Positions 14,811 to 34,007 are shown, counted from the first letter of the stretch. The stretch is DNA of 34,007 nucleotides from a bacterium HR17 (GCA_002898575.1 BEHT01000037.1:1-34007), one strand, 5' to 3'. Translations and numbers: made by a program. The notes: a model not told the origin generated them from the sequence alone.

Positions 14811-15748
14811 TTCATTCGGAGGGCGGCTCTCTTGAGCCGCCGAGAAGCAAGCGGCGCATCAGAGATGCGCCCTCCGAGAACGCTGAGGGTTCGTTCGGGG
14901 GGCGGCTCTCTTGAGCCGCCGAGAAGCGAGCGGCGCATCAGGAGATGCGCCCTCCGAGATGCAAAGGGTTCATTCGGAGGGCGGCTCTCTTGAGCCGCCG
15001 AGAAGCAAATGGCGCATCAGGAGATGCGCCCTCCGAGATGCAAAGGGCTCGTTCGGAGGGCGGCTCTCTGAGCCGCCGAGAAGCAAATGGCGCATCAGGA
15101 GATGCGCCCTCCGAGATGCAAAGGGTCCATTCGGAGGGCGGCTCTCTTGAGCCGCCGAGAAGCAAGCGGCGCATCAGAGATGCGCCCTCCGAGAACGCTG
15201 AGGGTTCATTCGGAGGGCGGCTCTCTGAGCCGCCGAGAAGCAAGCGGCGCATCAGGAGATGCGCCCTCCGAGATGCAAAGGGCTCGTTCGGAGGGCGGCT
15301 CTCTTGAGCCGCCGAGAAGCAAGCGGCGCATCAGGAGATGCGCCCTCCGAGAACGCTGAGGGTTCATTCGGAGGGCGGCTCTCTGAGCCGCCGAGAAGCA
15401 AGTGGCGCATCAGAGATGCGCCCTCCGAGAACGCTGAGGGTTCGTTCGGAGGGCGGCTCTCTGAGCCGCCGAGAAGCAAGCGGCGCATCAGGAGATGCGC
15501 CCTCCGAGATGTTGAGGGTTCGTTCGGGGGGCGGCTCTCTTGAGCCGCCGCAGAAGCAAGCGGCGCATCAGGAGATGTGCCCTCCGAGATGTTGAGGGTT
15601 CGTTCGGAGGGCGGCTCTCTTGAGCCGCCGCAGAAGCAAGTGGCGCATCAGGAGATGCGCCCTCCGAGAACGCTGAGGGTTCGTTCGGAGGGCGGCTCTC
15701 TGAGCCGCTGAAGGAAGAGCGGCGCATCAGGAGACGCGCCCTCCGAGA
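14811..15748. repeat. Tandem array of about 12 double-palindrome units
   Basis: About 12 units of roughly 78-80 bp. Each has palindrome A (GGCGGCTC, short loop, GAGCCGCC), linker GAGAAGCAAG, palindrome B (GGCGCATC, 3-4 nt loop, GATGCGCC) and a second linker CCTCCGAG followed by either AACGCTGAGGGTTC or ATGCAAAGGGTTC-like text. Palindrome A copies start near 14822, 14902, 14980, 15059, 15136, 15216, 15295, 15377, 15455, 15531, 15609 and 15690. Arms are nearly invariant; loops vary (TCT versus TCTT, AGA versus AGGA). Open frames through it on both strands merely translate the repeat. Related copies occur at 1-107, 3547-3580 and 27579-27606. Confidence 0.93.
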
Positions 15749-15754
15749 TGCTGA

Positions 15755-16282
15755 AAGGAAAAATTCAACAAAGCAGATGCGGCTGCAGCCGTCGTCCGTC
15801 GGTTGGGGCTGGCATGGAGCGTGCAATGCGTCCTGTGGCGTGGAACGACCATCGCCGTTCGCACGGGCTGGCTGACGCCAGCGCAATTACGGCTACGCCA
15901 CCGCGTCATCGTAGACGCCAACGGCAACATGCGTTATTGGGTTGCCGACCGTGCCGACCCGCTGGTCGCGGTGGAGCGCAAAGGCGCACCTTCTCTGACT
16001 TTCACCGCTGAAGGGGCAGTCGTGCGCCTTTACGATGCGGACGGCAAAAAGAGCCCATCGCTTTACGGGGAATGCCGACAGCACCTGCCAAATCTCTTCT
16101 CTGTCAACGACCGTCAAAGGCGCTGCCGTATCGGCATCAGTGTCCTCACGCAAGAGACGCCCTCGTTGACCCTCTACGACGCTCAAAGGCGTGGGCGTTG
16201 CCTCCTGCACCTGCGCGTTGGCGGTGCGCCGTCACGGTGTTTTTACGGTGCTCAGCGGCAGCCGGTGTCCACTGCTCCCTGA
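15755..16282 (+). pseudogene. Decayed or 5'-truncated small repeat-type protein gene
   Basis: An open frame of about 175 codons begins right after the palindromic array without a plausible ATG; the first candidate start is TTG at 15803. The translation starts with a hydrophobic stretch (RRLGLAWSVQCVLW), then HRVIVDANGNMRYWVADRAD and degenerate units of the type SLTFTAEGAVVRLYDADGK, LFSVNDRQRRCRIGI and SLTLYDAQRRGRCLLHL. I read these as decayed copies of a repeated motif 'LxLYDAxGRxRxxL'. Loss of the start next to the array and irregular repeat spacing suggest a gene remnant. It could instead be an intact non-ATG gene. Confidence 0.4.
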
Positions 16283-16441: not shown

Positions 16442-17959
16442 ATGACGGTGCACGAAATCGTGGACGATTTGGACAAACTGTTGGCGGTGTTACCGCCACG
16501 CATCCGCAAAGTGCTGGAACAGCAGGACGAGTTATCCGAGTTGCTGGAAGTCGTGCTGGACTTGGGGCGCCAGCCTGAGGCGCGTTTTCCCCACCGTTTC
16601 GTTTATCTCAACGACGAGCCCGTTACCCGCGACGACCTTGATTTCGTCGTGGAGCGCGTCGGCGAATTCAACCGCGATAACCGCGCAGGCATTGAAGGGA
16701 CACTCCATCGCATCTCGTGCATCCGCAACCGCAGCGGGCGCATCGTCGGGCTGACCTGTCGTGTCGGGCGGGCAGTGTTCGGGACGGTCAACATCATCCG
16801 CGACATCGTGGAGTCAGGCAAAAGCATTTTGCTGCTGGGCAAGCCGGGTGTCGGGAAGACGACCAAGTTGCGGGAGATTGCCCGTATCTTGGCGGATGAG
16901 TTTGGCAAGCGGGTCATCGTCGTGGATACTTCCAACGAGATTGCGGGTGATGGCGATGTGCCTCATCCAGGCATCGGATTGGCACGCCGAATGCAAGTGC
17001 CTTCGCCCGAAAAGCAAGCCGATGTGATGATTGAAGCCGTTGAAAACCACATGCCCGAGGTCATCATCGTGGACGAAATCGGGCGCAAAGAGGAAGCCGA
17101 TGCCGCCCGCACCATTGCCGAGCGGGGTGTTCAGTTGGTTGCGACAGCGCACGGCAATACACTGGACAATTTGGTCGCTAACCCGCTGCTGTGCGATTTG
17201 GTCGGTGGCATCCAAGCCGTTACCCTTTCCGACGAAGAAGCCCGTCGGCGTGGGACGCAAAAGACCGTGCTGGAACGCAAAGCCCCACCGACCTTTGATG
17301 TCGTCGTGGAACTTATTGACCGCCACAAAGTCGCTATCCACCACGATGCCGCCAAAGCCGTTGACGCTTTGTTGCGGGGGCAACCCATTCAGCCCGAAAT
17401 CCGCGAAGAGTTGCCCGACGGCAGCGTCCGCATCGTTCAGCCCGCACAAGAGCCCAAAAGCGAAACACCGCCAACCCTAGCGGGTTTGTCCCGCGAGAAA
17501 GGCGGGCGCGTTTACGCCTACGGCGTTTCGCGCAAGCACCTAGAACGAGCGACGATTCTGCTGGGCATCCCGCTGCGGTTGGTCAATTCGCCCAACGACG
17601 CCGATGTCATCCTCACGCTGGAATCGCACTTGCGCAAGGGGCATGGTAACTTGCGCGCCGTCGCTGAACGCGGGCAAAAACCCGTGTTCGCGCTGCGCAG
17701 CAACACTTACGCCCAAGTGGAACGCACTTTGCGGCTCATCTTTGGCATCAGCCGAACGCCCGAAGAAGAGTTAGCCATCCGCGAAGCCGAAAGCGCCGTG
17801 CAGACCGTTTTGGAAGAGCGTCGCCCTGTGGAGTTGACGCCCGTCGGTCCGCACCTGCGCAAGTTGCAACATCAAGTCGCCGAGCGCTACCGCTTGCCCA
17901 GCGAATCCATCGGGCGCGAACCGCGCCGGCGTGTCGTGATTTACCCCAACAGCGATTGA
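16442..17959 (+). CDS. SpoIIIAA/Ycf45-type AAA ATPase with R3H-like C-terminus
   Basis: 505 residues. An N-terminal region (about 1-115, with LGRQPEARF and VTRDDLDFVVERVGEFNRDN) precedes a P-loop ATPase with Walker A LLGKPGVGKTTK (about 131-142), DTSNEIAGDGDVPHPGIG, and Walker B VIIVDEIGRKEEADAARTIA (about 207-226), followed by ATAHGNTLDNLVANP. After a linker, GVSRKHLERATILLGIPLRL and the DADVILTL region lead to a C-terminal R3H-like segment (VGPHLRKLQHQVAERYRLPS) ending near the stop. This is the architecture annotated as 'AAA ATPase, R3H domain' and is related to chloroplast Ycf45 and to SpoIIIAA. Single-stranded nucleic acid binding is likely but the cellular role is poorly known. It has its own promoter and converges on the sugar isomerase gene 6 nt downstream. 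Confidence 0.9.
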   Translation: MTVHEIVDDLDKLLAVLPPRIRKVLEQQDELSELLEVVLDLGRQPEARFPHRFVYLNDEPVTRDDLDFVVERVGEFNRDNRAGIEGTLHRISCIRNRSGRIVGLTCRVGRAVFGTVNIIRDIVESGKSILLLGKPGVGKTTKLREIARILADEFGKRVIVVDTSNEIAGDGDVPHPGIGLARRMQVPSPEKQADVMIEAVENHMPEVIIVDEIGRKEEADAARTIAERGVQLVATAHGNTLDNLVANPLLCDLVGGIQAVTLSDEEARRRGTQKTVLERKAPPTFDVVVELIDRHKVAIHHDAAKAVDALLRGQPIQPEIREELPDGSVRIVQPAQEPKSETPPTLAGLSREKGGRVYAYGVSRKHLERATILLGIPLRLVNSPNDADVILTLESHLRKGHGNLRAVAERGQKPVFALRSNTYAQVERTLRLIFGISRTPEEELAIREAESAVQTVLEERRPVELTPVGPHLRKLQHQVAERYRLPSESIGREPRRRVVIYPNSD

Positions 17960-21272: not shown

Positions 21273-21338
21273 ATGCTGCGTGGAGGAGCAGAACAGGCAC
21301 ACTTCAAGGAGAAAAGCGACCGGGAGGGGCTAAGGCTC

Positions 21339-21366
21339 TTTACACTCTACCTCAAACACATATATT
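21339..21366 (+). promoter_or_regulatory. Promoter of the HEAT/MoxR/VWA operon
   Basis: TTTACA (21339-21344), a 16-nt spacer and TATATT (21361-21366) each match five of six consensus positions. The predicted start near 21373 leaves about 32 nt before the ATG at 21405, with AAAGGAGG in between. The surrounding AT-rich patch stands out in this GC-rich window. Confidence 0.6.
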
Positions 21367-21404: not shown

Positions 21405-22454
21405 ATGACGAGCCTCAAAGTCAATTTGGATGAACTGCCGGCTACATTGGTAGAGTTATTGAACCCGTGGTCGGTTGGGTTGAAAGCGATGACGAATCTG
21501 ATCCTCGGCGTTCCTTGTGGCGGAGGTAAGCACGAAGTTACTGTTACGCTAACCAGGCAAGGCAAGGTGGAAATTTTTTCGCCGTGCCAACTCCTGCCTG
21601 AGCCTGCCAGAAAATTGGCAGGAAGCGATTGCCTTGTTCGCGTCTCAGAAGAACTCATTAAGGCACTGATCAATGCGTTGAGGGACGAGGTGGTTTGCAA
21701 AAGGGTAGTTGAAGTGTTAGCGCATATTGGCGCACCTGCCGTTAAGCCGCTCATTGAGGGGTTGAGGGATGAGCGAGTTCGGAGGGGAGCGGTTGAAGCG
21801 TTAGGGCGCATCGGTAAACCTGCCGTCAAACCCCTCGCTAAAGCGTTGAGGAATTGGGATTGGCGGATTCGGAGGGGAGCGGTTGAGGCATTAGGGCGCA
21901 TCGGTAAACCTGCCATTAAACCGCTCATTGAAGCGTTGGGGGATCGGCATGAGCTAGTTCGCGAGGGAGCGGTTGAAGCGCTGGTGTGTATTGGTAAACC
22001 TGCCGTTAAGCCGCTCATTGAAGCACTGGGGGATTGGCGAGTTCGGAGGGGAGCAGTTGAGGCGTTAGGACGCATCGGTAAACTTGCCGTTAAGCCGCTC
22101 ATTGAGGGGTTGAGGGATGAGCGAGTTCATAAGGGAGCGATAGAAGCGTTAGGGCGTATTGGCGCACCTGCCGTTAAACCGCTCATTGAGGGGTTGAGGG
22201 ATGAGCGAGTTCGGAGGGGAGCGGTTGAAGCGTTAGGGCGCATCGGTAAACCTGCCGTCAAACCCCTCATTGAAGCATTGAAAGACGAACGAGTCCGTGA
22301 GGAAGCGGTTGAGGCGTTGGTGCGCATTGGCGAGCCTGCTGTTGTGCTTTTAAGGCAAGTTTTGCGACAAACGAGCAGGGAAGACCCGTTGCGATGGGTC
22401 ATTATTCAAATTCTTCGGCAAATCCCTGAACGGGGTGAGCGACGATGGCGATAA
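21405..22454 (+). CDS. HEAT-repeat protein (PBS-lyase-like repeats)
   Basis: 349 residues. An N-terminal domain (about 1-83) with no recognised motif precedes eight short HEAT-like units of about 28 residues (84 to about 315) of the form VKPLIEGLRDERVRRGAVEA-LGRIGKPA, then a C-terminal cap. Several units are nearly identical at DNA level, for example 21730-21840 against 22159-22269. The ATG at 21405 has AAAGGAGG 10 nt upstream; an in-frame ATG at 21273 precedes the promoter and is unlikely. The end overlaps the next gene by 10 nt, so translation is probably coupled. HEAT arrays bind proteins or nucleic acids; here it is likely the recognition or scaffold partner of the AAA ATPase. Confidence 0.85.
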   Translation: MTSLKVNLDELPATLVELLNPWSVGLKAMTNLILGVPCGGGKHEVTVTLTRQGKVEIFSPCQLLPEPARKLAGSDCLVRVSEELIKALINALRDEVVCKRVVEVLAHIGAPAVKPLIEGLRDERVRRGAVEALGRIGKPAVKPLAKALRNWDWRIRRGAVEALGRIGKPAIKPLIEALGDRHELVREGAVEALVCIGKPAVKPLIEALGDWRVRRGAVEALGRIGKLAVKPLIEGLRDERVHKGAIEALGRIGAPAVKPLIEGLRDERVRRGAVEALGRIGKPAVKPLIEALKDERVREEAVEALVRIGEPAVVLLRQVLRQTSREDPLRWVIIQILRQIPERGERRWR

Positions 22455-23632
22455 TGCCCAAAGGTGGGAAAGAGTTGTTGATAGCCTTGCAGACGCCGTC
22501 GCCCAAAGGGCACATGGGCATCCCTGCGTTGCTTTGGGGTAACCCTGGCGAGGGAAAGTCCAGTTTTGTGGAGAGTTTGCATCGTGACGGTTTCCCCATC
22601 GTCACCCTCATTGCCTCCATCCACGATCCGACGGACTTTTCGGGGTTGCCCGTTCACCGTGATGGGAAAGTCCGTTTTGCTCCGCCTGAATGGGCTTTCG
22701 CTTTTGACGAGACGGGTCAGGGCGTCTTGTTTTTGGATGAGTTGACGACGGCGCCGCCTTCCGTTCAGGCTGCTTTGCTGCGAGTCATCTTGGAGCGAAA
22801 GGTCGGGTTTCGGGATTTGCCCAAAGGCGTTCGGGTTGTCGCAGCGGCAAACCCGCCTGACATCGTTTCTGGTGGTTGGGAACTTTCACCACCTCTTCGC
22901 AACCGCTTCGTCCACATCCGCTGGGAACTTTCGGACACCTCTTACTTGCAAGCGTTGCAAGATGGTTTTGCGCGTCCTGAATTGCCCGCTATTGACCCGA
23001 TACTGCACCAAGAGGCTAAAAGTTACTGGAAGATGATGGTCGCTGCCTTCCTGAAACTCAACCCAAATCTTGCGAGGACATCGGCATCGGACGAAGAACA
23101 CGCTTTCGCTTCACCCCGAACTTGGGACTACGCCATCGCCTTGATGGCGTCCTGTGACTTGTTAGGCGAAGCACCGAAGCCGGGCAAGCAGGGCAGCGAA
23201 GCGTTTTTGAACTTGGTAGAGGGCTGCATTGGACACGGTGCCGCCGTCGCGTTCGCCAAGTTTTTGTCAAGCCTGCGGTTACCTGACCCCGACGAGGTGC
23301 TGGATGGCAAAGCCCAAGCCACTGTCTCTAAACTGCGTGATGACGAATTGTATGTTCTGTTTTCAGCGATGGCTGCCGCATTGGTGCGACGACAGCAACA
23401 AGATGGTTTCGTGGATGCGATGTTGATTTTCCTTGATTTAGCGGAGCAAGTTTGTCGGGATGGGAAAGTGGACACGATCTTTGTCACGATGAGGCAAGTG
23501 GCACAAGGGCAGTTGTTATCCCATGCCGTCGCGGAAGCGCAAAGAAACGGAAGGTTAAAGGAGATGCAGGAAGCGCTGAAACGGACTTTTGAAAGAACGC
23601 CGTTGCAAGAGTTTGTGGCAACACTGGCGTAA
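22445..23632 (+). CDS. MoxR-type AAA+ ATPase
   Basis: 395 residues. Walker A GNPGEGKSS (32-40), Walker B VLFLDE (94-99), sensor-1 region VVAAANPPD (131-139) and SPPLRNRF with the arginine finger region soon after. MoxR-family ATPases act as chaperones that remodel or activate VWA-domain proteins; the VWA partner is the next gene, 19 nt downstream. The C-terminal 200 residues are helical, with FASPRTWDYAIALMAS resembling the lid region of this family. The ATG follows GGGGTGAG and lies inside the 3' end of the HEAT gene. Confident as MoxR-like; client and process are unknown. Confidence 0.9.
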   Translation: MAIMPKGGKELLIALQTPSPKGHMGIPALLWGNPGEGKSSFVESLHRDGFPIVTLIASIHDPTDFSGLPVHRDGKVRFAPPEWAFAFDETGQGVLFLDELTTAPPSVQAALLRVILERKVGFRDLPKGVRVVAAANPPDIVSGGWELSPPLRNRFVHIRWELSDTSYLQALQDGFARPELPAIDPILHQEAKSYWKMMVAAFLKLNPNLARTSASDEEHAFASPRTWDYAIALMASCDLLGEAPKPGKQGSEAFLNLVEGCIGHGAAVAFAKFLSSLRLPDPDEVLDGKAQATVSKLRDDELYVLFSAMAAALVRRQQQDGFVDAMLIFLDLAEQVCRDGKVDTIFVTMRQVAQGQLLSHAVAEAQRNGRLKEMQEALKRTFERTPLQEFVATLA

Positions 23633-23651
23633 AAAGGTCTGGTGATTGACC

Positions 23652-24902
23652 ATGACGCATAACGAGATAGAACAAGCCTTGCGAATGGCGAGGGCATATG
23701 CTGCCGAGAAGTTGCCTTGGTTTGCACCCGCTTTGTATGCGGCGAGATTGGTCATCACAGATGCCCTCCCTTTCCCCGCTGGTATTGACGAAAAGATGCG
23801 GGTTTACTTCAACCCACAATGGGTCGCTCAACTCCGGCAACAAACGAACGAGCAAAAGACAATTGCGCAGTTAGCGTGGATTTGGGTGCACGAAATTTGC
23901 CACCGCTTGCGAGAACACGGAGAACGAGCAAGAGAAAAGCAAACGGAGCACCTCCTCTGGAACATCGCTGCCGACTTGGAAATCAACGACGCTGAGTGGC
24001 AAGGGTTGGAACGACCTTCAAGGGCTTTGCTGCCTCAACTCTTTTATTTGCCTTGCGGAAAGTTGGCGGAGTTTTACTACCACGAGTTGGCGAAACTTCC
24101 TAATTTCATTGAAAGTCTCATCCTCCCAGTATGGGACGAAGGCAGTGGCGTGCATGGGCAAAGACGAGAGTGGGAGTTGCCTGACGATGAACCGCAAGCG
24201 CCGCCCTTGACGGAGTTGGAGCAAGAAGTGATGCGGCGCGCCGTCGCTGAGGCAATTGTGCGGCACAAAGACCGAGGCGTTATCCCTGCAGGTTGGTCGC
24301 GCTGGGCAGAAGAGGTCTTGCAGCCCAAAGTCGATTGGAAAAAGTTGCTCAAGCGGAAAGTGCGGGGCGCTATCACCATCGGGATAGGGCAACGGATAGA
24401 CTACTCGCTTGCCCGCCCTCATCGGCGGGCAGAAACTTACGAACCGGTGCTGCCTCCGTCGCTGCAGGGTGATTTTGTCCCGCGCGTTGTCTGTGTCGTA
24501 GACACTTCGGGGTCCATCGGCGAACGAGAGTTAGCCCAAGCGTTGGCGGAAGTTCGGCAAGTGTTGGAGACCCTTCGCACGCCTGTCGTCGTGCTACCTT
24601 GTGATGCCGTGCCTTATGAACCCGTCAAAGTTCTCACTGCCTCGCAACTTTTGCGACTGCACTTGAGAGGTGGCGGCGGGACGGACATGGTGGCAGGGAT
24701 TGAAGCGGCACTGCGGTTAAAACCTACGCCCGATGCCGTGATCGTTTTGACGGACGGATACACACCGTTCCCAAACCAACGATACCAAGTGCCCGTCATC
24801 TTCGGTATCTTTGCCCCAAACGGAAGCAGCGCAGCGCCGAAGCCTCCGATGCCACCTTGGCGGGAAAGCGATGTCGTTGTCATACCGTTGACAAACCCTT
24901 AG
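23652..24902 (+). CDS. DUF2201-type metallopeptidase-like plus VWA domain protein
   Basis: 416 residues. The N-terminal half has an HEXXH motif (WVHEICHRLREH, His80-Glu81 to His84) and LLWNIAADLEINDAEW, typical of the putative metallopeptidase domain of DUF2201 proteins. The C-terminal half is a VWA domain with an intact MIDAS: DTSGSIG near 283-289, GGGGTDM near 337-343 and VIVLTDGY near 357-364. This type is normally encoded next to a MoxR ATPase, as here. The ATG at 23652 follows GGTGAT by 5 nt; a TTG two codons earlier is in frame. Last gene of the three-gene unit. Confidence 0.88.
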   Translation: MTHNEIEQALRMARAYAAEKLPWFAPALYAARLVITDALPFPAGIDEKMRVYFNPQWVAQLRQQTNEQKTIAQLAWIWVHEICHRLREHGERAREKQTEHLLWNIAADLEINDAEWQGLERPSRALLPQLFYLPCGKLAEFYYHELAKLPNFIESLILPVWDEGSGVHGQRREWELPDDEPQAPPLTELEQEVMRRAVAEAIVRHKDRGVIPAGWSRWAEEVLQPKVDWKKLLKRKVRGAITIGIGQRIDYSLARPHRRAETYEPVLPPSLQGDFVPRVVCVVDTSGSIGERELAQALAEVRQVLETLRTPVVVLPCDAVPYEPVKVLTASQLLRLHLRGGGGTDMVAGIEAALRLKPTPDAVIVLTDGYTPFPNQRYQVPVIFGIFAPNGSSAAPKPPMPPWRESDVVVIPLTNP

Positions 24903-27677: not shown

Positions 27678-28229
27678 TCAGTCCATTGCCCGCTCGGCAA
27701 GCCACCGTCGCAAGTCCAACGCCCTTTTGCGGCGGGAAGGGGAGAGGGGCGGAACTAAAGGGCGCAAATCTGTCGCCGTTTCGTTGTGGGGTGCGCCACG
27801 AAAATCCCACGACGCAACGAGTTGGACGGTCACCTCCAAGCGCGGGTTAACTGCGTCCACGCGCTTGAGCAACTCCACCGCCACGACATTTTTGTCGTCC
27901 ACACCCAACGCATCGCAAACCAAATCCTGCACAATTTTTAAGCCGTTATCCAAATCGCGCCGCTGCGGCGTTTTGAAAAAGAACTCCAACCGCAACCGCA
28001 CAAAACAGTCAGATGCTTGCGGCGCTGTCAACTCGGCGTCAAACAGCGAAAGGGTAGGAGCCTCTGGTGCCGGCGGAGCAAACTTCCCTGCGGCTTTCAG
28101 ACGCCGAAAGGCTTTTTGCAAGTGCGTTTTGTAGTGGCGCGCTTCACGGCTGAGCACCCAGCGTCCATCCCGCTCGGTGTATTGGTGATTGATGCTGGGC
28201 GGCAAGGGCAGAATGAACCGCCATTGCAT
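27678..28229 (-). CDS. RusA-family Holliday junction resolvase-like endonuclease
   Basis: 183 residues. N-terminal ILPLPPSINHQY matches the RusA start (substrate-binding 'P-P-S-x-N'). The catalytic core RRDLDNGLKIVQDLVCDALG followed by VDDKNVVAVEL holds Asp92, Asp94, Asn95, Lys98 and Asp111/112, corresponding to the acidic residues and Lys of E. coli RusA. About 40 C-terminal residues after the core are Arg-rich and extend beyond the usual 120-residue protein; a variable insert at about 48-72 is Pro/Ala-rich. RusA enzymes resolve four-way DNA junctions and are often prophage-borne. AAGGAGG lies 9 nt before the ATG. It lies 98 nt downstream of the HerA gene on the same strand, so co-transcription is likely. 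Confidence 0.88.
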   Translation of the reverse strand: MQWRFILPLPPSINHQYTERDGRWVLSREARHYKTHLQKAFRRLKAAGKFAPPAPEAPTLSLFDAELTAPQASDCFVRLRLEFFFKTPQRRDLDNGLKIVQDLVCDALGVDDKNVVAVELLKRVDAVNPRLEVTVQLVASWDFRGAPHNETATDLRPLVPPLSPSRRKRALDLRRWLAERAMD

Positions 28230-28327
28230 GGTTGGCAGCCTCCTTGCGCGCGCCGTTATTCGGACGGTGCCCCTTTTCGTGCGCCACTGCCGGCAGGAAC
28301 GAGCCTATCGCTCTGAAAGCGTCAGGC

Positions 28328-29989
28328 TCACTCTTGGGCGCTGTTGAAGAACTCGCCGAACAAACTGCGCGGCTGTTGGTGCGGTGGTGCTGTATCGCCA
28401 TTGGGTTGTTGGCGAGGTGTAGCGGTATCACCGATGGCGACAGTGGGCTGGAAAAAGTATTTCGTTTCGCCCGCTGTGTTGATGCCCTTGAGCGGCTTGA
28501 CACGAAAAATGATGGGGTAACCTTTCGTCACATTGCCCAGCGCCAACGCATGGTGGCGCTTGAGGCGCTTGACATACGAAAGCAGCGTCTGTTCATCGGT
28601 GAGCGCGCTTTTGGCGATGTGGCGCACATCGTCTTCAAAAGGCACATTGAGCAGCCAAAGGTTATCGGCTTGCCGCAACACAGATTCGTCCAATCCGCCG
28701 ATCATGTTGGTGATGAAAAAGCAGGTCAAGCCGATGTGACGGGAACGGGTCACGATGGCGCTGATGGTGTTGCGGCTGATATAAAGGTGTGCCTCTTCAA
28801 AGAAGACGAACGGAAAACGGTGCGTCCCCAGCAAGATTTCCTCGTCACAGATTTCTCGGATGATTTCCAGCAGCGCCTGCACGAACCCAAACCGCGCTAA
28901 ATAAGACAGGTCAGAAAGGTCAATGACCAACGCCCCACCGTCGCGGATTTTTTGATATTCGCGGCGGAAGTCAATGGCTTCGTTGGGGTGCGAGGCGAAG
29001 ATGCCCGTGTTTTTGATGGCTTGCAAGCGGGTGCGGATAGCGTTGTTGACGACTTCGTTGGACACCAATTGCCCCTGCTCGGACAGTTCAATCAGGTGAT
29101 CAAGGCTCAAAAAGTAGGGGCGACCCCGCTTGCGCTCCAGCGCATCGGCTTCCGCAAACAGTTGGTAGAGCCGATTTTCCAGTTGCACCGCCGACACTTC
29201 CGGTAAGCCATATTTCGTCATCAGCGTGATGAAAGGCTGGATGCCGAACTGGCGCAGACCCATCTTCAGGTTTTCGCCGACTTTCAGGTGCACGATGCCC
29301 CGCTTAAGCACCTTGCCCGTAAAAGGGTCAACAGAGTGGCGCGGCAATTGGATGTATTCGCGGTTGATGTCAAAGACGATGCAGGGCGCACCCCGTTCAA
29401 TCAGTTCCACCAAGATCACTTTGGCAAGGTGTGACTTGCCTGATCCCTTGACGCCCGTGATGATGTTGATCTTCTCTGTGTGTCGCCCTTCCACGCGGAA
29501 AGGTTTGCCGCGTAAGGTGTAGCCCAACTCCAGCGGGTTACCCAATAACTCCACACATTGCTGAAACATCTCATCATCGGGCACGGGAAATACTTCCACA
29601 TCACGGTGGGGAATCCAACCGTCCCACTGATCCCATCCGCCGTTGGGGAGCAAGGTGCGGCGGATTTTGGCAATGGCGACTTTTAGGTTGCGCTCTTCTG
29701 AAGGTTGCAACCCGTTATTGGACAAAAACCCGCCCCCGTTTGCCATCAACTCGCTTTGCCCCTTCAACGCTTCTGCCGCCCACTCATTGCCTGCCAACGC
29801 CAGTTTCAGCAACTCGCGAGTCATGGACGGGTAAGTGGCGGTGCGAAATTCCATGATTTGGACGATGAGCCCCCGGTTCGTGTCCTTTTCTCGCACGCAC
29901 AGACTCTCACCCACCCGTAAATCTTCCTCGCGAGGGTCAAAGACGAGTTCCATGATGTCGCCTCGCACTTGGTAGACCTCAATGCTCAT
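28328..29989 (-). CDS. HerA-type hexameric DNA-pumping ATPase (DUF87/FtsK-HerA superfamily)
   Basis: 553 residues. An N-terminal HAS-barrel-like part (about 1-55, with VGESLCVREKDTNRGLIVQI) and a helical insert precede the ATPase core: Walker A TGVKGSGKSHLAK (178-190), IVFDINREYIQLP (204-216, typical HerA/FtsK 'D.n.Ey'), Walker B FPFVFFEEAHLYI (392-404), TRSRHIG (414-420) and ITNMIGGLDESVLRQADNLW, where HerA proteins usually have an 'sQRPs' motif. The tail is Gln/Pro-rich. HerA works with nucleases (NurA in archaea; SIR2, DUF4297 and others in bacterial defence systems) to translocate and degrade or process DNA. Here the adjacent nuclease is RusA-like. GGTGA lies 8 nt before the ATG and a good promoter lies further up. 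Confidence 0.9.
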   Translation of the reverse strand: MSIEVYQVRGDIMELVFDPREEDLRVGESLCVREKDTNRGLIVQIMEFRTATYPSMTRELLKLALAGNEWAAEALKGQSELMANGGGFLSNNGLQPSEERNLKVAIAKIRRTLLPNGGWDQWDGWIPHRDVEVFPVPDDEMFQQCVELLGNPLELGYTLRGKPFRVEGRHTEKINIITGVKGSGKSHLAKVILVELIERGAPCIVFDINREYIQLPRHSVDPFTGKVLKRGIVHLKVGENLKMGLRQFGIQPFITLMTKYGLPEVSAVQLENRLYQLFAEADALERKRGRPYFLSLDHLIELSEQGQLVSNEVVNNAIRTRLQAIKNTGIFASHPNEAIDFRREYQKIRDGGALVIDLSDLSYLARFGFVQALLEIIREICDEEILLGTHRFPFVFFEEAHLYISRNTISAIVTRSRHIGLTCFFITNMIGGLDESVLRQADNLWLLNVPFEDDVRHIAKSALTDEQTLLSYVKRLKRHHALALGNVTKGYPIIFRVKPLKGINTAGETKYFFQPTVAIGDTATPRQQPNGDTAPPHQQPRSLFGEFFNSAQE

Positions 29990-30329: not shown

Positions 30330-33300
30330 GTTCCGACCCGACCTTGAGGGGATTGAAATGGCGCATAGGTCAGGGTCAGACAAGCAGCGTAATACGTTCC
30401 GACCCGACCTTGAGGGGATTGAAATTAGTCTTGCTCAACTTCCTGTCGACGATAGCTCTGGTTCCGACCCGACCTTGAGGGGATTGAAATTGTGGACGGA
30501 GAATGGCTCTGCCTCTACTTGCTGGGTTCCGACCCGACCTTGAGGGGATTGAAATTTTGATAAATCGCCAGATCGCTCGTGATAATGACCAGTTCCGACC
30601 CGACCTTGAGGGGATTGAAATGATATGAAGCGCTTCATTTTCGCCTGAGAGCCGCCCTCGTTCCGACCCGACCTTGAGGGGATTGAAATGAGTTCCATCG
30701 GGGAATACTCGCGAAACTCAGGCGTTCCGACCCGACCTTGAGGGGATTGAAATTCTGGCTGGCGGAGCAATTAGAGTTTCGGCTGAAACGCGTTCCGACC
30801 CGACCTTGAGGGGATTGAAATTCTTTCTGCGTTCCATCGTCATTCCCCCCTTAATGGCAGTTCCGACCCGACCTTGAGGGGATTGAAATTCTCATAGGCA
30901 AAATTGCCCATGCCAAATTCCCTCCGGTTCCGACCCGACCTTGAGGGGATTGAAATCATCGTCGTGGTGCCGTAAACAGGGACGGCGTGAGCGTTCCGAC
31001 CCGACCTTGAGGGGATTGAAATACGGCGCGGGAGCGGAGGCAGGCGCGGCGCCGTTTTGTTCCGACCCGACCTTGAGGGGATTGAAATTCACGAAAGAAG
31101 GCGTTTGGGTGCATGAGGAGTGGGAGTTCCGACCCGACCTTGAGGGGATTGAAATTTTTCGGCGCGGCTTTTTTTGCCCCCGCCCCTTCCATGTTCCGAC
31201 CCGACCTTGAGGGGATTGAAATTGTTCCCGAAGACATCCACGATTGGAAAGGCAGCAGCAGTTCCGACCCGACCTTGAGGGGATTGAAATGCGGGCATTG
31301 ATCCCCGCTGGACGGGCGATTGAACGTTCCGACCCGACCTTGAGGGGATTGAAATGCACATGCGTCGGGTGGTGTGACGGCACATGGCGTTGTTCCGACC
31401 CGACCTTGAGGGGATTGAAATCAGAGAAGTTGCTGACTTACTCTTGTTGGTTTTGGCTGTTCCGACCCGACCTTGAGGGGATTGAAATCACAACGGGGGT
31501 TGAAGGCACAAGCGATTTGCCATAAGTTCCGACCCGACCTTGAGGGGATTGAAATGATGGCAACTTCAGTCAGCACTGGGTCGGAAACGATCGTTCCGAC
31601 CCGACCTTGAGGGGATTGAAATGAGACAGAAAATCTTTCAAGCGATGGACAAAGTTATGTTCCGACCCGACCTTGAGGGGATTGAAATATTGACATATGT
31701 CAATTCGTCTTTTCGCTCCCATTGTTCCGACCCGACCTTGAGGGGATTGAAATTTGGCTTTCGGGTTGCTGTGGGCGTTGAAATGGAAAGTTCCGACCCG
31801 ACCTTGAGGGGATTGAAATTGATGACAATTGATGTCGTAACGCCCGTTCCCCATATGTTCCGACCCGACCTTGAGGGGATTGAAATTTCAGCGGGACTTT
31901 TTCCAAAAGGTTTACCGCATCGTTCCGACCCGACCTTGAGGGGATTGAAATTACAGCACCGGCTGGTTAAAACCGATGGGCTGGCGCTGTTCCGACCCGA
32001 CCTTGAGGGGATTGAAATTGCAGCCCCGCACGGTGCGCCAGCAAGAGATGCGCGTTCCGACCCGACCTTGAGGGGATTGAAATGGGTGTTGGCAGGGTTT
32101 TGTAACGCCAGCTGTAACAGTTCCGACCCGACCTTGAGGGGATTGAAATAGCACAAAATGTTGCCTGGCTGTGCGATGTAAGACCGTTCCGACCCGACCT
32201 TGAGGGGATTGAAATTAATGCGTTCGCGAAGCAAAACATAAACGAAAAACGGTTCCGACCCGACCTTGAGGGGATTGAAATTGACGGGTCATGTGTTCTG
32301 TGACGGGCATGGAGAGAGTTCCGACCCGACCTTGAGGGGATTGAAATGGGGAAAGTGGGGGAAGTCCGTCAAGACAAAAAGGGTGTTCCGACCCGACCTT
32401 GAGGGGATTGAAATTTGGCGGCTCGGAAGACAAAGAAAACTCACTATCGGTTCCGACCCGACCTTGAGGGGATTGAAATAGCAACTCGGTGAGGACGTGC
32501 CGACAGCTCGCATCCGTTCCGACCCGACCTTGAGGGGATTGAAATGGCGCCATTGAGCGGGCGTGCGACATGGTTCGTCCGTTCCGACCCGACCTTGAGG
32601 GGATTGAAATCCAGCGCATGTAGTTGCTGATTGCTTGACCGCCCTGGTTCCGACCCGACCTTGAGGGGATTGAAATGTGGCTGATACAAAGTGGTGCGGG
32701 TGAAGTGGCGGGTTCCGACCCGACCTTGAGGGGATTGAAATGCATACCAAAACCGACCTCCAGTGGGTGCATACTCCGTTCCGACCCGACCTTGAGGGGA
32801 TTGAAATGCCCGCATTGCATTACGGGTGGGCGACGGGTTGGACGGGCGTTCCGACCCGACCTTGAGGGGATTGAAATTTGTCATCACGGTATATCACCCA
32901 GCCCACTATGGGCTGTTCCGACCCGACCTTGAGGGGATTGAAATGCGTCAGCGCATTGCGAGAGCCGCTCAGCGTCAGCGCAGTTCCGACCCGACCTTGA
33001 GGGGATTGAAATTTTGCGGTGACGGATGGATGTGCGCCCAAGTCATCGTTCCGACCCGACCTTGAGGGGATTGAAAGAAACGGTCGGCGGATGTGGGTTG
33101 GCTCAGAGGAGGGTTCCGACCCGACCTTGAGGGGATTGAAAGGAGAGGAAATTTTGAGTGTGTTGGGCGTCCCGCCTGGTTCCGACCCGACCTTGAGGGG
33201 ATTGAAAGGTGAGAATCGTCTACGACTTTCAAGGTCGGAGTTACTGTTCCGACCCGACCTTGAGGGGATTGAAAGGTTATCAACAAACGATTTCTACTGA

Positions 33301-34007
33301 AGACCCGACGGTTCCGACCCGACCTTGAGGGGATTGAAAGACGGTTGTTGTTGTTGCTTCCGCGTCTGCATACTTGTTCCGACCCGACCTTGAGGGGATT
33401 GAAAGCACCTCGCTCATAGCGTGTCAACGCCATTGTCAATGTTCCGACCCGACCTTGAGGGGATTGAAAGGACAGGTGGCGGCAAGACTTCTTTTGCCGT
33501 GCAGGTGGGTTCCGACCCGACCTTGAGGGGATTGAAAGGCTCCTAGGAGAGAGTATTCGTTGTCATGATAAAAAGTTCCGACCCGACCTTGAGGGGATTG
33601 AAAGTGCCGTGCAACTTCCAACTTGGTCTGACCTTGCCGTCAGTTCCGACCCGACCTTGAGGGGATTGAAAGGTTGGGCGCTTGCATGGCGGGTTCTGAC
33701 ACATGCCGAGTTCCGACCCGACCTTGAGGGGATTGAAAGCCCGCCAATATGGATGTGATTGCGCCTGAAAGCGTTGTTCCGACCCGACCTTGAGGGGATT
33801 GAAAGGTTGGGCGCTTGCATGGCGGGTTCTGACACATGCCGAGTTCCGACCCGACCTTGAGGGGATTGAAAGCCCGCCAATATGGATGTGATTGCGCCTG
33901 AAAGCGTTGTTCCGACCCGACCTTGAGGGGATTGAAAGGTTGGGCGCTTGCATGGCGGGTTCTGACACATGCCGAGTTCCGACCCGACCTTGAGGGGATT
34001 GAAAGCC
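30330..34007 (+). CRISPR. CRISPR array, 56 repeats, open at the right edge
   Basis: 30-nt repeats starting GTTCCGACCCGACC and ending GAGGGGATTGAAA plus T or G, with 55 complete spacers of 34-40 nt. The first repeat is 30330-30359 and the last complete one is 33976-34005; the array continues off the window. Apart from the final base I saw no variation between repeats. The last base is T in repeats 1-41 (to 33012) and G in repeats 42-56 (from 33048). The ATTGAAA end is typical of several type I and type III systems and fixes the direction as plus strand, consistent with the T-rich leader on the left. No cas gene is present, so the type is unassigned. Spacers 51, 53 and 55 are identical, as are 52 and 54. 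Open frames through the array only translate repeats and are not genes. Confidence 0.99.

Follow-up and report, generated by a model that had tools for sequence, protein, structure and literature searches.

The window, by which we mean the whole 34,007-nt stretch of bacterium HR17 DNA analyzed here, carries at positions 21405-24902 a compact module that codes for a HEAT-repeat protein, a MoxR-clade AAA+ ATPase and a DUF2201 protein, as revealed by an ORF and Pfam scan. The genes and their motifs, the linkage of the three across phyla, the exchange of one type of repeat solenoid for another and the turnover of the repeats are all observed among relatives of this locus. We regard it as an even proposition that the module is an accessory ATP-dependent remodelling or proteolysis machine whose recognition subunit can be exchanged. 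The window corresponds to an entire contig of the 3.15-Mb host genome, and the phylum of the host takes in Fimbriimonadales and other named Armatimonadota. Here we describe the module and its core, examine whether the solenoid gene is a true component, compare the module with known MoxR and von Willebrand factor A (VWA) systems, and weigh different models of its function.

Organization of the Module

The HEAT gene (21405..22454, + strand) overlaps the MoxR gene (22445..23632, +) by 10 nt, and a gap of 19 nt separates the latter from the VWA gene (23652..24902, +), which agrees in every open reading frame with the tight packing described in an earlier note on this DNA. If an alternative MoxR ATG at 22454 is used, the overlap becomes 1 nt. 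The HEAT gene starts at the ATG at 21405, which is preceded by AAAGGAGGG; an in-frame ATG further upstream, at 21273, has no site like AAAGGAGGG. The same note had given the module its own AT-rich promoter, and a putative sigma-70-like promoter, TTTACA-16-TATATT, is indeed plausible upstream of the HEAT gene (21339..21366, +; 10 of 12 positions in a consensus scan), but the scan returned two matches against 1.7 expected in shuffles and the match is thus not significant.

The MoxR and DUF2201 Core

The ATPase of 395 aa matches AAA_5 (E=2.2e-9), and its PDB matches include the AAA domain of midasin; these two matches place it in the MoxR clade of AAA+ proteins, as is characteristic of MoxR-vWA ternary systems. 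Its sequence contains a Walker A motif, GNPGEGKS, at 22538-22561 (+). The DUF2201 protein of 416 aa joins an N-terminal metallopeptidase-like domain (DUF2201_N, PF13203, E=4.6e-19) to a C-terminal VWA domain (DUF2201, PF09967, E=3.8e-20), both exceeding the Pfam gathering score (69.5 vs 23.2 bits and 72.7 vs 26.4 bits, respectively). The N-terminal part is the conserved DUF2201_N domain, the C-terminus is the vWA domain, and no variable effector domain is fused to the protein.

The HExxH zinc-site motif, HEICH in the window (23889..23903, +), is kept in 27 of the 28 aligned VWA relatives and is followed by a third H, an R and conserved acidic residues in the arrangement N...D...IND, as expected downstream of HExxH in a zinc metallopeptidase. 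The orthologue found in a planctomycete (L108:4463-6055) has HLxxH instead, by which it is probably inactive as a peptidase, and proteolysis would thus not be essential everywhere. The MIDAS motif DTSGS (24501..24515, +) is accompanied by T344 (24681-24683) and D368 (24753-24755), and these residues, including the aspartates D284 and D368, are invariant or nearly so across relatives: DTSxS and GGGGT are each present in 28/28 aligned sequences, and the aspartate of TDG in all readable ones. Pfam matches and motifs therefore agree with the earlier reading of the locus as a HEAT-repeat protein, a MoxR ATPase and a VWA protein with HEICH and a complete MIDAS. An AlphaFold (AF2) model of the VWA protein reached a mean pLDDT of 88.5, and matches to this model in a fold search of the PDB cover the VWA half only; neither profile nor fold searches of the PDB found a relative of the HExxH half. 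The host genome holds one more distant VWA and one more MoxR-like gene, located on separate contigs (G000:C33:17090-18232 and G000:C19:31653-32078).

The HEAT Solenoid and Its N-Terminal Domain

The third component is a solenoid of 349 aa (HEAT_2, PF13646, E=4.8e-43; HEAT_PBS, 2.6e-33) consisting of nine HEAT-profile units with a period of 84 nt. Repeat analysis of the gene revealed an exact 90-nt stretch (21747..21836, +) with a second copy at 22179-22268, and the two copies fall in non-adjacent units, a pattern suggestive of a recent repeat duplication or conversion.

In front of the repeats is a domain of approximately 60 aa with the pattern VPCxGGKHxV...G (21492..21680, +), recognized by alignment with the third components of relatives. 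Residues ~30-92 of the window protein align with the starts of third proteins from Fimbriimonadales, Bacteroidota and a planctomycete, the latter two weakly. With HMMs built without the window protein, this protein ranked first of all ORFs not in the training family (9,788 ORFs searched), at E=0.19 with the Fimbriimonadales model (the decayed relative L052 set aside) and E=2 with the Bacteroidota model. Comparison by hhalign gave P=2.6e-4 between the Fimbriimonadales and Bacteroidota groups, and P=6.5e-4 against the actinobacterial ankyrin proteins. The AF2 model of the domain shows three strands and helices (pLDDT 64 overall, 76-80 in the core), and no credible relative was obtained when the PDB was searched for its fold. 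Within the HEAT group this is likely a docking domain, and its extension beyond that group, to the ankyrin proteins included, is tentative. We also considered a single N-terminal domain uniting all third components and set it aside as not established, given the weak cross-phylum support (E=0.19 to 2) and the tentative ankyrin match. In the leucine-rich repeat (LRR) third proteins no copy is visible.

Is the Solenoid Gene a True Component?

Loci around VWA orthologues were gathered from whole genomes and GTDB contigs. A solenoid gene adjoins the MoxR/VWA pair in Armatimonadota, Bacteroidota, one planctomycete and one Deinococcota plasmid, and its membership stays while the gene order varies among HEAT-MoxR-VWA, MoxR-HEAT-VWA, HEAT-VWA-MoxR and MoxR-VWA-solenoid. 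The Fimbriimonadales provide MoxR-HEAT-VWA with a HEAT protein of 802 aa (L066/L036), MoxR-HEAT-VWA fragment-HEAT-VWA (L065/L035) and HEAT-VWA at the start of a contig (L067); the order HEAT-MoxR-VWA is also seen at L058/L037, and the contigs of L068, L070 and L071 end too close to the VWA gene for a solenoid neighbor to be judged. In Bacteroidota the gene adjoins the pair at 14 of the 16 resolvable loci (HEAT or diverged helical repeats at 12, LRR at 2) and is not adjacent at the other two, L160 and L164. Several of the diverged helical proteins have no Pfam repeat match and were assigned through their N-terminal domain and their relatedness to HEAT-matching proteins. A helical third gene lies upstream of the planctomycete pair (L108), the plasmid pMESIL01 of Allomeiothermus silvanus carries HEAT-VWA-MoxR, and in Actinobacteria an ankyrin-bearing gene is found directly upstream of MoxR at 49 of 53 loci. 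Two loci possess more than one solenoid gene: at L158 (8557-11898) one MoxR-VWA pair is followed by two N-domain solenoid genes in tandem, and at L053 two such genes are upstream of the pair.

No solenoid was found beside the more distant Armatimonadota pairs L041-L045 or beside the phage relative inspected, indicating that the core can act without one. By eye, two of these distant MoxR-DUF2201 pairs (L042:5238-10860 and L043:6565-12395) have a conserved STAS-looking protein pair upstream and a cysteine-rich, zinc-finger-like protein downstream in place of a solenoid. Pairs without a HEAT gene, together with the several HEAT genes that Armatimonadota genomes hold, could be taken to mean that the HEAT gene is a chance neighbor of MoxR and VWA. 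We consider this highly improbable, because the genes overlap, the association recurs in several phyla and gene orders, and other solenoids occupy the same place. In its 3.15 Mb the host genome contains only about seven genes with a HEAT_2 match at E<=1e-10, and we estimate that a HEAT neighbor would arise by chance at roughly 1% of loci; with a solenoid at nearly every resolvable orthologous locus, the recurrence is far beyond chance, and a chance neighbor was rejected on this ground. The HEAT protein is thus upheld as the third component of a conserved module. The earlier note had also proposed that absence of HEAT beside most orthologues would speak against it. Such absence holds only if HEAT is read narrowly, since distant orthologues have ankyrin, leucine-rich or other partners; in the resolved clades a repeat solenoid is almost always there.

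Exchange of Solenoid Type and Repeat Turnover

In a maximum likelihood tree of the VWA protein, the ankyrin loci of Actinobacteria fall together in a single group with support. Both LRR loci (Saprospiraceae) are nested in the Bacteroidota HEAT/N-domain group as sister to a helical-repeat locus (support 92/89), and this nesting suggests that one solenoid type was replaced by another. The array itself also turns over fast while the core stays nearly unchanged: in two Fimbriimonadales loci, L065 and L066, the MoxR proteins are 92% and the VWA proteins 89% identical, and the HEAT proteins are of 372 and 275 aa with 9 and 6 profile units in the former and of 802 aa with 21 units in the latter. Several relatives' contigs stop within or beside the HEAT gene, as repetitive sequence would predict. 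A truncated VWA fragment lies between the two HEAT genes of L065 (6914-8004), and a broken-up HEAT and VWA remnant is found at L052 (7347-9277); we view both as signs of module duplication and decay.

Distribution and Genomic Context

The MoxR/VWA pair was detected in 30 of 291 Armatimonadota with a loose E threshold, in 6 of 18 genomes of one Fimbriimonadales family, and in none of the four nearest relatives of the host, two of which are incomplete genomes. Elsewhere it occurs in 13/249 genomes of a Bacteroidota order, 1/246 Planctomycetota and 80 of 150 Streptomyces, approximately 16 of the last with the high-scoring ankyrin-like type. Copies of the pair are located on plasmids, and distant relatives in phages. 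The module is accessory, patchy and partly plasmid-borne, and a role in conflict is therefore possible.

The earlier note had linked the module to defence through the nearby HerA-RusA genes and CRISPR array. We found no support for this link: the flanks of relatives consist of ordinary genes of ordinary metabolism, and the array starts 5.4 kb downstream of the module, separated from it by genes for an M19 dipeptidase and a nucleoside transporter and by the HerA-RusA pair. In a PADLOC scan of 66 flanking proteins, the strong hits among the matches listed (25 of 52 families) were two to a mad3 model and single ones to broad helicase/exonuclease families; no enrichment of known defence families is seen among these matches, and the defence island reading was dropped as the scan gave nothing specific.

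The window has further features of its own. Its CRISPR array (30330-34007) has roughly 55 repeats (GTTCCGACCCGACCTTGAGGGGATTGAAA) and is cut short by the end of the contig. In its first part GAAA is followed by T, which gives way to G at about 33070, and a 133-nt unit of two spacers recurs at the end of the array; no cas genes were seen among the window proteins scanned. The RusA resolvase gene adjoins the HerA/DUF87 helicase gene on the same strand (27678-29989, -), and this HerA is distant from the HerA models of NCBIfam, its best score being against PADLOC mad8. One protein combines SpoIIIAA-like ATPase, PF25516 and R3H domains (16442-17959), and an intergenic tandem array is built from a GC-rich palindromic unit of ~60 nt (14950-15760; GGAGGGCGGCTCTC...GCCGCCGAGAAGCAA...).

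Comparison with Known MoxR and VWA Systems

RavA-ViaA has two components and resembles the module in having MoxR and VWA as a pair of separate genes; ViaA is not known to be a DUF2201 protein. The rubisco activase CbbQO and NorQD, in which a MoxR motor is likewise combined with a VWA adaptor bearing a MIDAS, are not known to have a third solenoid gene or an HExxH domain, and their client is encoded nearby. The window module keeps the motor and the adaptor and has, in addition, an HExxH domain that is intact and an exchangeable solenoid. The VWA adaptors of CbbQO and NorQD bind their client at an acidic site by way of the MIDAS, with force provided by the MoxR ring (PMC4660213, PMC9976466).

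Four classes of MoxR-vWA ternary conflict systems have been defined by their third component, namely VMAP, iSTAND, FtsH and beta-propeller (Kaur et al., 2020; PMC7159879). The module shares with them a MoxR AAA+ gene, a vWA gene and a variable third gene as well as a patchy accessory distribution (PMC7159879), and by its MoxR AAA+ protein and the MIDAS aspartates of its vWA it is related to them in kind, as had been proposed. However, its vWA belongs to the DUF2201 type and has an intact HExxH domain at the N-terminus, and its third gene is a free-standing repeat solenoid, whereas the HEAT and TPR repeats of the published classes are fused to the vWA protein as effector regions, the only role in which HEAT appears there (PMC7159879). 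No VMAP, iSTAND, FtsH or beta-propeller third component was found, the third genes matching HEAT, LRR, Ank or nothing in Pfam. By the sequence features tested, the module would belong to none of the four classes.

Thermus phage phiFa and similar phages encode a MoxR-like ATPase paired with DUF2201/vWFA; the VWA family is shared with the window and the AAA+ gene is close by in phiFa, but the phage proteins are only 24-29% identical and the phiFa neighborhood has no annotated solenoid gene. A literature search, thin on subscription journals, found no paper on a triad of DUF2201 and solenoid, an absence that is not proof.

Proposed Mechanism and Alternative Models

A complex of the three proteins, a solenoid that recognizes the client, remodelling driven by ATP and proteolysis are all inferred. 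The HEAT solenoid, or the LRR, ankyrin or other repeats in relatives, would bind a client or trigger protein and would probably attach to the shared core through its small N-terminal domain. The DUF2201 protein would serve as both adaptor and tool, its MIDAS VWA gripping the client by an acidic residue or peptide and a hexameric MoxR ring pulling or restructuring the client using ATP, in the manner of CbbQO and NorQD. Cleavage of the client or a partner by the retained HExxH domain would probably follow. The most economical reading is that the solenoid contributes the choice of client, and the HExxH domain possibly a step that cuts it. The client may come from an invader, may be a damaged protein, or may be an enzyme awaiting maturation.

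Two other models have to be weighed against this one. If the module were a MoxR-vWA ternary conflict system, its solenoid would sense an invader protein, MoxR-VWA would set the threshold and the metalloprotease would be the effector. The patchy accessory distribution with its plasmid copies, the fast turnover of repeats and swapping of solenoids, and the published MoxR-vWA precedent (PMC7159879) all suit such a system, yet many accessory stress functions typically show sporadic inheritance too, the flanks are metabolic and free of defence enrichment among the matches listed, and the module has no known toxic or nucleic-acid effector and no PADLOC model that matches its VWA protein; we hold this model to be rather unlikely. 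A chaperone dedicated to maturing a single cellular enzyme or complex, similar to RavA-ViaA, NorQD or CbbQO and with the HEAT protein as a client-specific scaffold, we find unlikely as well. CbbQO and NorQD lie together with their client genes, but no enzyme gene was seen recurring beside the module across relatives, and the type and length of the solenoid change far faster than a fixed client predicts, even though HEAT repeats are common scaffolds and the characterized MoxR-VWA pairs do work in this manner (PMC9976466, PMC4660213). Our preferred reading remains the accessory remodelling or proteolysis machine. Its bolder form is a speculative idea that we put forward with considerable doubt: a new class of ATP-driven protease, acting as a bacterial receptor-protease, in which HEAT, leucine-rich or ankyrin receptors that are interchangeable and evolve fast direct one conserved MoxR-metalloprotease/VWA engine at proteins that are damaged or come from invaders.

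If the solenoid is a client receptor, one conserved motor-protease core could be re-aimed by swapping its repeat protein. The module would then represent a natural modular system for targeted proteolysis or remodelling, provide the DUF2201 family, so far unstudied, with a testable role, and form a further branch of the MoxR-vWA ternary systems.
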